From assembly GCF_023278185.1 (NCBI RefSeq), contig NZ_CP066356.1, forward strand, positions 124,001 through 188,000: a stretch of 64,000 nt of DNA. Direction: 5' to 3'. Positions 18,746 through 24,807 of the stretch are shown piece after piece; the stretch's first letter is position 1; every line of letters starts with the position of its first letter. The DNA is from Bradyrhizobium elkanii USDA 76 (lineage in GTDB: Bacteria > Pseudomonadota > Alphaproteobacteria > Rhizobiales > Xanthobacteraceae). The notes beneath the pieces were generated by a model that did no database searches, was not told where the DNA came from, and was given only the letters and a program-made list of their open reading frames with translations. The position numbers and the translations under genes are program-made.

Positions 18746-19492
18746 CTACGCGACGCTTTCCAGGTAAGCTTCTTCCGCAGCCTGGATCGCGTCGGGAGTC
18801 CCGACATGCATCCAGACGCCGTCGAGGCGCAGGCCGAACAGTCGCTCCTGCTCGTTGGCGCGGTCGAACATCTTGGTCAGCGAGAATTCGCCGGCCGGCG
18901 CGTCGGCGAACAGCGCAGGCGACATGATCGCGGCGCCGGCATAGACGAACGGCACCACCTGGTGTTCGCGCCGCTTGCGCAACGCGCCATCCGGCAACAT
19001 CGAATAGTCGCCGCGCCCGCCATAGCCGATGCTCGAGGCGGTCGGCGCCATCAGCAGCAGGATATCCATCCGCGCGGGATCGAAGGTTTCAGCGAGCCGC
19101 GCCAGATTGGAGCGCACACCGTCGATCCACATCGTGTCCGCGTTCAGATGATAGAACGGCGCATCGCCGAGCAGCGGCAGCGCCTTCACCACCGCGCCGC
19201 CGGTGCCGAGCACCTGGTCGCGCTCGTCGGAGATGATCACGCGCGGACGGCTGCGGGTCTTGACGTGCTCGATGATCTGGTCGGGCAGATAGTGCACGTT
19301 CACGACGGCTTCGCTGACGCCGGCGCCGGCGAGCTTGTCGAGCACATGGTCGAGCAGCGGCTGGCCGGCGACGCTGACCAGCGGCTTCGGCATCGTGTTG
19401 GTCAGGGGGCGCATGCGCACGCCGAGGCCCGCAGCGAGCACCATGGCCTTATGGGGAGTGACAGGCATCTTCCGGATATTCTCGGTCATCAT
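18746..19492 (-). CDS. murU: Nucleotidyltransferase, MurU-like (N-acetylmuramate-1-phosphate uridylyltransferase)
   Basis: MurU makes UDP-MurNAc from MurNAc-1-phosphate in the AmgK-MurU peptidoglycan recycling route. The 248-residue protein has the nucleotidyltransferase signature VLAAGLGVRMRPLTN...MPKPLV near residues 18-42 and the metal-site motif LNADTMW. It lies in the same direction downstream of the TsaE/kinase fusion, with a PilZ gene between them. The partner kinase nearby is the main reason for choosing MurU over other sugar nucleotidyltransferases. Start may be 19492 or the adjacent ATG at 19489. Confidence 0.82.
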   Translation of the reverse strand: MMTENIRKMPVTPHKAMVLAAGLGVRMRPLTNTMPKPLVSVAGQPLLDHVLDKLAGAGVSEAVVNVHYLPDQIIEHVKTRSRPRVIISDERDQVLGTGGAVVKALPLLGDAPFYHLNADTMWIDGVRSNLARLAETFDPARMDILLLMAPTASSIGYGGRGDYSMLPDGALRKRREHQVVPFVYAGAAIMSPALFADAPAGEFSLTKMFDRANEQERLFGLRLDGVWMHVGTPDAIQAAEEAYLESVA

Positions 19493-20001: not shown

Positions 20002-21525
20002 CTACGGTACTGGAGGAGGGATGTTGGCTGTGTACCAGATGCGGAAGCTGGTCAGCGCCGGATGCGCCAGCGACCGCTCGAGATAGGTCCAGATCCGCGG
20101 CTGGTGCTTGAGATATTGCGGCTTGCCGTCGCGGCGGTTGAGCCGCGCAAAGGTGCCGAGCAGGCGGGTGTTGCGCTGCGCCGACATGATCGCATAGAGC
20201 TCGGCGAAGCCGGCCGGATCGAAGCTTTCATCGGTCGCGCGCCGCGCCTTGATGTAGCGGGTCAAGAGCGACAGCTCGAGCTGCTCGGGCACATCGATCC
20301 GCGCGTCCTGCAGCAGCGACACCACGTCATAGGCCGCGGGGCCGAGCAGCGCGTCCTGGAAATCGATGACGCCGACGCGCAGGATGCCGGTGCGTTCGGC
20401 CAGCCAGATGATGTTCGGCGAATGGAAGTCGCGGATCACCCAGGTCCGCGGTGCGGCTGCGGGCTTCTCCAGCAGACCGCGCCACATCCCGAGAAATTCG
20501 GCGCGAAGCTCCTCGCTCGGCTGCACGCCGCGGTCGGGCAGATACCATTCCAGCATCAGCCCGATCTCGATCAGCCAGGCGTCGATGTCGAATACCGGGA
20601 TGTCGTAGCTCTCGTCTGACGTCAGCGGCAATTGCTCCGGCAGCACCTCGCGGTGCAGTGCCGCCAGCATGTCGACGGCGGCCTCGTAGCGCTCGGCGAT
20701 CGGCTGCGGCGGATCGCCCTCGATGATGCCTTCGGCGCCGAAATCCTCGGTGATGAGGAAGCCGGATCCGAGGTCGATGTGACGGATCGCGGGCGCGGAG
20801 AAACCATGCTTGCGCAGGCCGTTTCCGATCGCGACGAACGGCCTGACGTCTTCGGCGAGATGCACTGCTGCGCTGTAGGACTGGCCGCTGTAGATCGCCG
20901 GGCCGTCAGGACGGCGCGGCGAGTTCATCAGGATGACGGTGCCGTCGTCGTTGCGCAGCCGCGCATAGGAGCGTGTCGAGGCGTCGCCCGGCATGCGTTC
21001 GCGCCGGGCATTGAGAAAGCCCGCGCGATCGAGGAACTGGCGCAGCGCGTTGAGCCGCGCGACCTTCGCTGCGCCCTTGCCATGGCCGGTGATCTCGGCC
21101 GCGCGCGCCGCCGATCCGAGCGCCGGGCGGTGGCTGAACGCGATATCGATGCGGTCGGCGGGCATCGCGTCGGGCGCGCGTTCCGGCCATTCGATCAGCG
21201 CCACGATGTCGTCGGGCAGCGGCGACAGCCCGATCTCCTCGAGCTCGCTGGCGTCCTTGATGCGGTAGAGGTCGGCATGGACCAGCGGATACGACGGCAG
21301 CTCGTAGCTCTGCGCCAGCGTGAAGGTCGGGCTCGGCACCTCCAGCGCATCGTCGGCGGCGAGGTAACGGATCAGCGCGCGGGCGGCCGTGGTCTTGCCG
21401 GCGCCGAGGTCGCCGGACAGCGTGATGACGTCGCCGGCGCCGATCAGCAGCGCGAGGTCGGCCATCAGCTCCGCTGTCGCGGTCTCGTTCGCGAGCGCCA
21501 CCGAGAATGTCGAGGTCGCCGTCAT
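20002..21525 (-). CDS. tsaE: TsaE ATPase fused to an AmgK-like phosphotransferase
   Basis: This is a 507-residue two-domain protein. Residues 1-150 are TsaE, the ATPase of the t6A37 tRNA modification complex, with Walker A GDLGAGKTT (38-46), the FTLAQSYE stretch and the LIEWPER motif. Residues about 155-507 are an aminoglycoside-phosphotransferase-fold kinase with the catalytic loop RDFHSPN (Asp and Asn kept) and VIDFQDALLGP. Its best-fitting role is AmgK, which phosphorylates MurNAc and GlcNAc at C1 ahead of MurU. The ATG overlaps the stop of the DivL-like gene (ATGA). TsaB and TsaD are not in the window. Confidence 0.88.
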   Translation of the reverse strand: MTATSTFSVALANETATAELMADLALLIGAGDVITLSGDLGAGKTTAARALIRYLAADDALEVPSPTFTLAQSYELPSYPLVHADLYRIKDASELEEIGLSPLPDDIVALIEWPERAPDAMPADRIDIAFSHRPALGSAARAAEITGHGKGAAKVARLNALRQFLDRAGFLNARRERMPGDASTRSYARLRNDDGTVILMNSPRRPDGPAIYSGQSYSAAVHLAEDVRPFVAIGNGLRKHGFSAPAIRHIDLGSGFLITEDFGAEGIIEGDPPQPIAERYEAAVDMLAALHREVLPEQLPLTSDESYDIPVFDIDAWLIEIGLMLEWYLPDRGVQPSEELRAEFLGMWRGLLEKPAAAPRTWVIRDFHSPNIIWLAERTGILRVGVIDFQDALLGPAAYDVVSLLQDARIDVPEQLELSLLTRYIKARRATDESFDPAGFAELYAIMSAQRNTRLLGTFARLNRRDGKPQYLKHQPRIWTYLERSLAHPALTSFRIWYTANIPPPVP

Positions 21526-24032
21526 TCAGCAGCGTTGCGATGTGCGGTCTGGTCGATCGGGAAGTCGCAGGTCACGGTCGTGCCGCGGCCTACGGTCGAA
21601 TCGACCCGCACCCGTCCGCCATGCAGTTCGACGAAGGAGCGGACCAGCGACAGGCCAAGGCCCGCGCCGCGGTGCCGCGAGCCGTGCGAATGGCTCTCGA
21701 ACCAGTTGAACACCTTGTCGCGCATCTCGGCCGGAATGCCGGGACCGGCGTCGGTCACCGCAAACACCACGCTGTGCTCGGTGCGGTGCGCGCTGATCGT
21801 GACGGTGGCGTCATGCGGCGAGAAGCCGACCGCGTTGGCGAGCAGATTGTACAGTACCTGCACCACGCGCCGCTCGTCGCCGACGAAGGCGCCGATGTCG
21901 GGCTCGATATCGACCTTCAGCGTGATGCGGTCGGTCGCGAGGCGGTCCTGGATGCCTTCTGCGGCAGCCTCGATCGCCTGGCCGATATTGACCGGACCGA
22001 GCTCGAGCTTCATCGCGCCGGCGTCGATGGTGGCGAGATCGAGAATGTTGTTGGTCAGCGCCAGCAGCGCGTTGGTCGATTTGGTGACGTAGTCGAGATA
22101 TTCGGCCTGCTTCGGCGTCAGCGGCCCGGTCGAGGGATCGCTGAGGAAATGCGCGAAGCCGATGATGGTGGTGAGCGGTGCGCGCAGCTCGTAGGAGACG
22201 TGGTGGACGAAATCCACCTTCATCTGGTCGGCGGCTTCCAGCGCCTCGTTGCGCTCGCGCAGCGCCCGCTCGACATTTTCGGTGTCGGTGATGTCCTGGA
22301 AGGCGAGCAGGGTCTTGCCGTCGGGCAGCGGGATGGTCATGCAATTCAGCACGCTGCCGTCCTTGCGCTCGAGCTTGAGCGCGACCTGGGCGCGGTTCTC
22401 GATCGCGGTGATCTGCTCGCGCAGCGTGCGCCAGGTCAGGGCGTCGTCGAACAGCGGCCGGCACAGCGCTTCCACCGCCTCGATATGCGGCTCGCCCTGC
22501 AGCGCGTCGGCCGGCAGCTTCCACATCTTGGCGAAGGGCGGGTTGAACAGTTCCGCGCGTCCGTTGCTGCCGAACACTGCGACCGCCTCGCCGAGATTGT
22601 CCAGGGTCTCGCGCTGCACCCGCGTCAGGCGGTCGTAGCGGCGGGCGAGGTCGAGGCTCTCGGTGACGTTGTCGAACAGATAGGTGACGCCGCCCTCGAG
22701 GTTCGGCGTGGTGACCACGCTGATGGCGCGGCCGTCGGGCAGGAACCAGGTATAGGTCTCGGATTCGACCGCGCGATAGGCTTCGTGCAGCTTGGCCTTC
22801 CAGGCGCGGAAATCCGGCTGCTCGGGCAGCTTGCGGTTGGCGCGCAGCCGGTCCAGCACGCTGGAATCGTCGGGGTTGCCGTCGAGGAAGGCCTGGTCGA
22901 GGCCCCACAGCCGCCGATAGGACTCGTTGTAGAAGGTGAGCCGCCGGTCGGCATCGAACACCGCGACGCCCGAGGACAATTGGTCGAGGGTGCGCCGGTG
23001 CGCCTCGACCATCCGCGCGATCGCCGCGCGCAGCGCCGCGGCTTCGCTGGCGTCGATCGCGATGCCGGCGCTGCCGCCGCTTAGCTTGAGCGCCTGCACG
23101 TCGTAGATCCGCCGCTCGCCGCTGACCACGATCGGCAGTCGCGCGGCATAATTGGCATTGTCGTTCAGCGCGCGGGTCAATTCGGTGCGCTGGTCGCTTT
23201 CGAGCAGTTCGAGATTGCGCTGCAGCGCGTCCGACACGCTCCTGCCCTCGGTGGCGCGGACATAGGCCGCGTTGGCATAGCGCAGATTGCCCTCGAGGCT
23301 CTTGGCCCAGATCGGCCATGGCGCGGCGGCGGCGAAATCGCGCAGCAGCTCGGTTTCCTCCTGCAGCGTCTTGTAGCGCAGGTTGGACTCGGCGAGCTCG
23401 CGGCGCAGCCCGCCGAGCTCGCGGATCCGCACGATGGCCTGGCCGCCGATCGCGCGGCCCATCGCCTCGATGGCGCGGCCGGCCGAGGTCGAGAGGTTGA
23501 GCAGGAACGCCTCGCCCTTCTCGCGCAGCGCGTCGACGGCGTGGTCCATCTGCAGCGCCGGCTCGGGCGGCAGCCAGGTTCCGAAGGCGAGGACGCGTTG
23601 CGGCGAGCCTTCCTGCGACATCACCAGCGAGATGTCGCCCGAGATCTGCGGTCGGTTGTCGCCCGCGGCCCAGGAGATCAGGACCTGCGGCTCGACGAAC
23701 AGCAGCGCGCGCAGCCGGTCCGATTGCGCCTGCAGGTCCGTGATCTCGGACTGCAACTGCTCCTCGTTGCGGGTCGCGCGCACGCGGGTGCGCATCAAGA
23801 GGATCGCGGCGACGGCCGAGAAGCCGACCAGCGCAAGCGACGTCGCGAGGACCGCGACCTCCTGGTGATTGAAGCCGAAATGATCCGACATCGCCTGGGT
23901 CACCAGGCTCTCGGCGGCAAACGAGGTGCGGGCCGGCAGCAGCGCGGTGATGGCGAGCCCAATCATGCCGTCGCGCGCCAGTGAGGTGCATGACAGCAGG
24001 GTTCGACGCATTGCCGCGACTACGCCCGACAT
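21522..24032 (-). CDS. divL: DivL-like cell-cycle sensor kinase with tyrosine in the H-box
   Basis: The 836-residue protein has an N-terminal membrane helix (about 60-80), several PAS-like domains (about 230-590), a dimerisation domain and a HATPase domain (DAGPGIPAE, GAGLGLSLV). The H-box reads DFVHHVSYELRAPL: Tyr614 stands where histidine kinases have the phosphorylated histidine (normally S-H-E-L-R). That substitution is the hallmark of Caulobacter DivL, which controls CckA together with DivK. The operon with tsaE-amgK and murU also fits DivL. The ATG at 24032 follows a promoter region rich in GANTC sites. An open frame reaches 24338 but starts in noncoding sequence. Confidence 0.88.
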   Translation of the reverse strand: MSGVVAAMRRTLLSCTSLARDGMIGLAITALLPARTSFAAESLVTQAMSDHFGFNHQEVAVLATSLALVGFSAVAAILLMRTRVRATRNEEQLQSEITDLQAQSDRLRALLFVEPQVLISWAAGDNRPQISGDISLVMSQEGSPQRVLAFGTWLPPEPALQMDHAVDALREKGEAFLLNLSTSAGRAIEAMGRAIGGQAIVRIRELGGLRRELAESNLRYKTLQEETELLRDFAAAAPWPIWAKSLEGNLRYANAAYVRATEGRSVSDALQRNLELLESDQRTELTRALNDNANYAARLPIVVSGERRIYDVQALKLSGGSAGIAIDASEAAALRAAIARMVEAHRRTLDQLSSGVAVFDADRRLTFYNESYRRLWGLDQAFLDGNPDDSSVLDRLRANRKLPEQPDFRAWKAKLHEAYRAVESETYTWFLPDGRAISVVTTPNLEGGVTYLFDNVTESLDLARRYDRLTRVQRETLDNLGEAVAVFGSNGRAELFNPPFAKMWKLPADALQGEPHIEAVEALCRPLFDDALTWRTLREQITAIENRAQVALKLERKDGSVLNCMTIPLPDGKTLLAFQDITDTENVERALRERNEALEAADQMKVDFVHHVSYELRAPLTTIIGFAHFLSDPSTGPLTPKQAEYLDYVTKSTNALLALTNNILDLATIDAGAMKLELGPVNIGQAIEAAAEGIQDRLATDRITLKVDIEPDIGAFVGDERRVVQVLYNLLANAVGFSPHDATVTISAHRTEHSVVFAVTDAGPGIPAEMRDKVFNWFESHSHGSRHRGAGLGLSLVRSFVELHGGRVRVDSTVGRGTTVTCDFPIDQTAHRNAAE

Positions 24033-24348: not shown

Positions 24349-24807
24349 CTAGCGTCCGGTCGAGCCGAAGCCGCCGCTGCCGCGCCCGGTCGGCGACAGC
24401 ACGTCGACCGGAACCAGCTCGGCCCGTGTGACCGGCGCGATCACCATCTGCGCGATGCGCTCGCCGCGCCGGATCGAAAACACCTCGTGGCCGTGATTGA
24501 TCAGCAGCACGTTGATCTCGCCGCGATAGTCGGCGTCGATCGTGCCGGGCGAGTTCAGCACCGTGACGCCGTATTTGGCGGCAAGGCCGGAGCGCGGCCG
24601 CACCTGGGCCTCGTAGCCCGGCGGCAGCGCGATCGTCAGTCCGGTCGGAACCATCTCGTAGCGGCCCGGCAGCAGCAGCAGCGGCGCCGACCGCGGCACC
24701 GCCGCGAGCAGGTCGAGGCCGGCCGCGTCGGCGGTCTGATAGATCGGCAGCAAAAGATCCGCGCCGTGCGGCAATTGGTGGACTTCGACCCTGATGGTGG
24801 CGCTCAC
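24349..24807 (-). CDS. dut: dUTP diphosphatase
   Basis: This enzyme hydrolyses dUTP to dUMP and keeps uracil out of DNA. The 152-residue trimeric-type dUTPase has all five motifs: [21 protein letters not shown] with the catalytic Asp, [10 protein letters not shown], and the C-terminal [12 protein letters not shown] lid. Its ATG overlaps the coaBC stop (ATGA at 24804-24807), the usual coaBC-dut pairing in proteobacteria. Confidence 0.96.

Follow-up and report, generated by a model that had tools for sequence, protein, structure and literature searches.

We analyzed a window of 64,000 nucleotides (nt) from the 9.5-Mb genome of Bradyrhizobium elkanii USDA 76; all positions refer to the whole window. 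The gene at 21522..24032 on the minus strand very probably encodes the Bradyrhizobium DivL, a PAS-containing pseudokinase that would read phosphorylated DivK (DivK~P) and tune the kinase CckA as in Caulobacter. Tyrosine, Tyr614, stands in its H-box in place of the phospho-acceptor histidine. The gene and its parts are as follows.

21522..24032, minus strand: divL ortholog, a pseudo-histidine kinase of 836 amino acids, in a single open frame from ATG to TGA; it has Pfam domains, its best PDB sequence match is 4q20 (DivL), and it is matched at full or nearly full length in the best 80 of 270 related loci.
22191..22193, minus strand (read 22193-22191): codon TAC of Tyr614 at the phospho-acceptor position; the alignment to 4q20 pairs this residue with Caulobacter Tyr550.
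22173..22214, minus strand: H-box DFVHHVSYELRAPL, residues 607-620.
22017..22220, minus strand: HisKA/DHp domain, residues 605-672 (Pfam PF00512, 55.9 bits).
21552..21881, minus strand: HATPase_c (CA) domain, residues 718-827 (Pfam PF02518, 96.8 bits).
22656..22988, minus strand: PAS_7 domain, residues 349-459 (Pfam PF12860, the better of two stretches).
23793..23861, minus strand: hydrophobic segment, residues 58-80, a likely membrane anchor read by eye from the protein, inside a predicted long helix (56-113).

The original prediction gave Tyr614 and its codon correctly and left the strand unstated. A plus-strand reading of 21522-24032 was ruled out, as no such protein is found on that strand. 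The PAS domains precede the DHp and CA domains, as expected for DivL, both in the Pfam matches and in the AlphaFold model, which was built from a 30-row alignment (A1) and has a mean pLDDT (predicted local distance difference test) of 80.3 and a pTM (predicted template modelling score) of 0.34. In this model, a long helix with the hydrophobic stretch is followed by four PAS-like modules, whose strand and helix patterns we place at about residues 116-205, 241-327, 355-455 and 483-580, and then by DHp and CA. CA residues 778-788, which we read as the ATP-lid region, have pLDDT below 50.

The window protein lacks the H-box histidine that marks an active histidine kinase. Tyr614, encoded by TAC, occupies the canonical position and aligns with Tyr550 of 4q20, as had been predicted. 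The swap is specific to divL, since the other 51 of the 52 HisKA domains matched in this genome, in all of which the H position was read, have His. Tyr is found at this site in all of the best 80 related loci, a sample that consists mostly of Bradyrhizobium, and both Tyr codons are used (73 TAC, 7 TAT), which argues for conservation beyond chance; the window protein is 98% identical to the DivLs of several Bradyrhizobium species. No conserved histidine was found elsewhere in the H-box. In 147 DivL rows (145 rows of the class survey described below, the window protein and 4q20), the equivalents of His610 and His611 are His in only 5 and 37 rows, respectively, the commonest residues being Ala and Asn; as neither is conserved, both were rejected as alternative phospho-acceptors. 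The statement that the ATPase motifs are kept stands for both N-box Asn residues and for the F, G1 and G2 motifs, and fails for the N-box Lys, whose position holds Gly in the window protein, in contrast to Arg in Caulobacter DivL.

Sequence comparisons support the DivL-type interpretation and mark the gene as a putative divL ortholog. The best PDB sequence match of the protein is Caulobacter DivL (4q20, 6.1e-41), followed by a match at 2e-30, and among the best 50 rows of the fold search no entry exceeds 4q20 in identity (36%), its ranks by E-value being 5 and 9. When the protein is aligned with Caulobacter DivL and with true kinases, its DHp-CA part is identical to 4q20 in 89 of 236 columns (38%); none of the 12 kinases compared from the same genome exceeds 85 of 247, a narrow margin. 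Long matches to the window DivL occur across the class. In protein trees built without the Tyr column, it groups, with starred support, with DivLs from the same order and thus does not fall outside the DivL clade; the DivLs as a whole separate from the true kinases, a split weakly supported in the two trees (52 and 46). The best 25 of 90 NCBIfam matches include no DivL model; they are to models of other kinases, and all score below the respective cut-offs. This fits the expectation that many tools would annotate the gene as an ordinary PAS histidine kinase.

In Caulobacter, DivK is a target of DivJ and PleC. Kinases of the DivJ/PleC/PdhS type are present in the B. elkanii genome (L002, L005 and L004; NF050805 under its cut-off). 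They belong to the same HisKA/HATPase class as the window protein but keep the His, and the trees separate them, with weak support, from the DivL rows.

The window protein shares with Caulobacter crescentus DivL (4q20; available text of PMC4211667) the PAS domains before DHp-CA, the Tyr for His, an Arg and a Thr on the DivK face, Ala at the 601 site, and DivK and CckA partners encoded in the genome. It differs in having Phe for Tyr562, Tyr for His579 and Asn for Asp595. According to the portions of Childers 2014 (PMC4211667) consulted, Caulobacter DivL has neither kinase nor phosphatase activity, its DHp face binds DivK~P with phospho-specificity contributed by the PAS domains, the substitutions R553A, T557N, Y562A and H579E weaken this binding, and A601L acts allosterically. 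In the alignment, these interface residues are partly kept. Arg553, Thr557 and Ala601 correspond to Arg617, Thr621 and Ala667 of the window DivL, and Tyr562 and His579 are replaced by Phe626 and Tyr645, which differ from Caulobacter and yet match most orthologs (of 134 Tyr-type rows, counted with the window protein and 4q20 and without L265, 127 have Phe and 130 have Tyr at the respective sites). At the allosteric 601 site, Ser is found in 11 of 13 true kinases (the 12 of the same genome and HK853). DivLs were also reported from other rhizobia and relatives: in the sections of PMC11500502 seen, the Sinorhizobium meliloti DivL, from the rhizobial order, acts with CckA and is judged essential there, and a DivL homolog is named for Agrobacterium in the text seen of PMC3577659.

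Candidates for DivK and CckA are encoded in the same genome as the window divL. The DivK candidate is 73% identical to the Caulobacter DivK query and has Caulobacter DivK as its best PDB match; the frame directly after it, of 462 amino acids, contains a receiver domain and is taken for PleD. The CckA candidate (L154) matches NF046020 with 1266.8 bits at a cut-off of 1000, and its PDB matches include CckA (5idm). The ChpT family PF10090 has one match in the genome (4.2e-38), the CtrA candidate is 86% identical to its query sequence, and the CpdR candidate is over its cut-off. The link to cell-cycle control drawn in the original prediction is supported by the DivK, CckA, ChpT, CtrA and CpdR candidates, and the contacts with DivK and CckA would hold by analogy. 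We suggest that the likely membrane anchor and the successive PAS domains are followed by a DHp-CA module, which would not be phosphorylatable at the usual site because Tyr614 replaces His. This module would dimerise and bind DivK~P; binding would act via the PAS region and lower the stimulation of the hybrid kinase CckA, and less stimulation of CckA would reduce phosphorylated CtrA (CtrA~P) through ChpT. The missing kinase activity, the DivK~P binding and the effect on CckA are all predicted here from Caulobacter.

Several observations weigh against the identification of the protein as a DivL of this kind. In the fold search, several non-DivL kinases outrank 4q20 by E-value, and the kinase core is barely closer to Caulobacter DivL than to the DivJ/PleC-like kinase L002 of the same genome, which accounts for the value of 85 of 247 columns. 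Thr621 is shared with Caulobacter, but Asn is commoner at this position in the Tyr-type rows (103/134). Since G1, G2 and the N-box Asn are kept, ATP binding by the window DivL may be possible. Finally, in the part of PMC7200025 seen, divK of Hyphomonas neptunium is dispensable and divL essential, so DivK may not be the principal input in all cases.

The neighborhood of divL contains the following genes.

20002..21525, minus strand: fused tsaE-amgK gene, directly downstream of divL (TIGR00150 TsaE over its cut-off; NF045698 AmgK under its cut-off).
18746..19492, minus strand: nucleotidyltransferase-like gene of the same block, an open reading frame matched in 76 of the 80 related loci.
24349..24807, minus strand: dut (dUTP diphosphatase), the upstream neighbor (NF001862 over its cut-off), matched in 77 of the 80 related loci.

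The gene at 18746..19492 is labelled here as a putative murU. The divL stop and the tsaE-amgK start share 4 nt (ATGA), so the two genes are possibly translationally coupled. Contig ends truncate some of the best 80 related loci; among the 80, tsaE is found in 79 and dut and amgK in 77 each. The divL-tsaE-amgK-murU block is common to several distant loci and is not universal, tsaE being within 1500 nt of divL in only 8 of 29 other loci of the class; the adjacency of tsaE, seen in the window and in many but not all DivL loci, is therefore a lead rather than a definition. TsaE and the AmgK-like kinase share one frame in the window, and the distant locus L302 has a tsaE match followed by a murU match, without an amgK match. 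One genome (G053) has two DivL-like genes (L182 and L209), both followed downstream by matches to tsaE, amgK and murU; its assembly is 90% complete with 5% contamination and so may be a mixture.

Could the protein instead be some other Bradyrhizobium kinase, unrelated to DivL, that lost its histidine? The small excess of core identity to DivL over that to kinases of the same genome and the weak split between DivLs and kinases in the trees speak for it. Nevertheless, we regard it as extremely unlikely, given the class-wide long matches, the tree position among DivL rows, the gene block shared with several distant loci, and the same Tyr. A second Tyr-bearing HisKA protein is also absent among the 52 of the genome, and for the same reason a paralog in place of DivL was rejected. 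Just as unlikely is the use of His611, three residues before Tyr614, as the phospho-acceptor: most sequences of the 30-row alignment have His at this position, and none of the 37 DivL rows that have it carries His at the normal site, but across the 147 rows Asn is the commonest residue there (96/147) and His is not conserved.

Caulobacter DivL is said to have been originally read as a tyrosine kinase, by Wu et al. in 1999. Autophosphorylation on Tyr614 by an active tyrosine kinase would be in line with Glu615, which directly follows Tyr614, and with most of the ATPase motifs being kept. Against it, the consulted part of Childers 2014 (PMC4211667) reports no autokinase activity and weak nucleotide binding for Caulobacter DivL, the residue after Tyr is relaxed in Tyr-type DivLs (Gln in 40/134), Gly replaces the N-box Lys in the window, and four rows of the class have Phe at the site, which is not phosphorylatable. 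We consider this explanation very improbable, and prefer the DivK-reading pseudokinase.

Additional residues at the phospho-acceptor site were identified across the class. The survey covered 387 genomes; of the best 150 rows listed, 147 were read (the last three were left), including the window and two rows from G053. The site is Tyr in 134 rows, His in 7, Phe in 4, Val in 1 and unreadable in 1. One row, L265, is counted as Tyr from the full-length query and the multiple alignment, and was read as Thr in the kinase-only alignment. The unreadable row, L185 (G260), is a DivL-like match with an internal stop and was left out. Phe is found in L096, L107 (window's order), L118 and L234, and Val in L197.

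Five of the seven His rows belong to one genus, g38 of the family f36, so the seven are not independent. Among the 24 genomes of g38, all 22 readable DivLs (L306-L327) have His; one further genome has a fragment without the site and one has no DivL-like best match. Apart from g38, the search of that order found one genus, the sister genus g264, whose single genome (L336) has His as well. The tsaE gene follows divL on the same strand in 22 of the 23 loci of g38 and g264, the exception being L321, a locus of 3307 bases in which only divL was matched. The two further His rows, L174 (G078) and L284 (G203), lie outside f36; tsaE was not found within 4 kb of either, so their orthology is taken from the long match alone. 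In a partner test on 21 genomes, six g38 genomes and the g264 genome have DivK matches of 73-78% and a long match to the CckA model at 1e-230 or lower, under the cut-off as in 18 of the 21. The DivK match is 81% in G078 and only 46% in G203, and no DivK match at 1e-30 was found in G126, the genome of a Phe row. Glu follows the His in all His-bearing DivLs, that is, in g38, g264 and the two scattered genomes. Both this Glu and the N-box Lys are present in 7 of 7 His rows of the survey, compared with 91 and 76, respectively, of the 134 Tyr rows. The g38 kinase core alone is slightly closer to HK853 (9.6e-44) than to DivL (1.2e-41).

The His rows are found among Tyr rows in the DivL trees, where starred branches require the His label to change at least three times in one tree and twice in another. 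L284 nests beside two members of the same genus that carry Tyr, and its His was likely regained. The RpoB tree comprises 28 genomes (2 of the 30 had no RpoB match), with frames chosen by similarity and that of G067 partial. In it, f36 falls into a supported group of seven (99/99) together with G078, which has His, and G001 and G067, which have Tyr. This group sits deep inside Tyr lineages, the outgroup branches being long, and under vertical descent the placement favors a regained His. On the other hand, in the approximately unbiased (AU) test, in which, as in the gene tree, the kinase outgroup rows fill only 36-38% of the columns, a placement of the f36 His-DivLs with true kinases is not rejected and is even preferred (37 log units higher, p 0.956), so the gene tree does not decide between an old and a regained His. 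A regained His in f36 is a possibility suggested by the RpoB tree. As a tentative proposal from sequence, which we rate as possible though rather doubtful, the pseudokinase state of DivL may be reversible, and the His-bearing DivLs may act on DivK as functional kinases or phosphatases, turned from a reader of DivK into an enzyme.

The swap predicted for the window gene is correct and of an already known kind, since the Tyr for His is documented throughout alphaproteobacterial DivLs, with Ala in Magnetospirillum, in the available text of Childers 2014 (PMC4211667), which also covers the same swap in Caulobacter DivL. Brilli 2010 (PMC2877005), in the part seen, catalogued DivL orthologs and found that the DivL kinase domain goes with the presence of DivK. 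The His, Phe and Val rows of our class sample show that Tyr is not universal in alphaproteobacterial DivLs. No report of a natural His-bearing DivL was found among the papers listed in the literature searches, which included available portions of PMC4211667, PMC2877005, PMC11500502, PMC9430884, PMC4426382, PMC3577659 and PMC7200025; supplements and subscription papers were outside their scope, so this is no proof of novelty. Among the titles listed for Bradyrhizobium with DivL, CtrA, cell cycle or bacteroid, none indicates a study of this gene. General models would name it only a PAS sensor kinase; its probable assignment to the CtrA pathway is of relevance to cell division, with no new principle involved. 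The His-bearing DivLs matter more than the window case: they are the natural counterpart of the Caulobacter Y550H mutant, which, in the passages of PMC4211667 seen, has growth and shape defects and is labelled when DivK~P and ATP are present. A lineage living with His in DivL would make the role of the Tyr directly testable.

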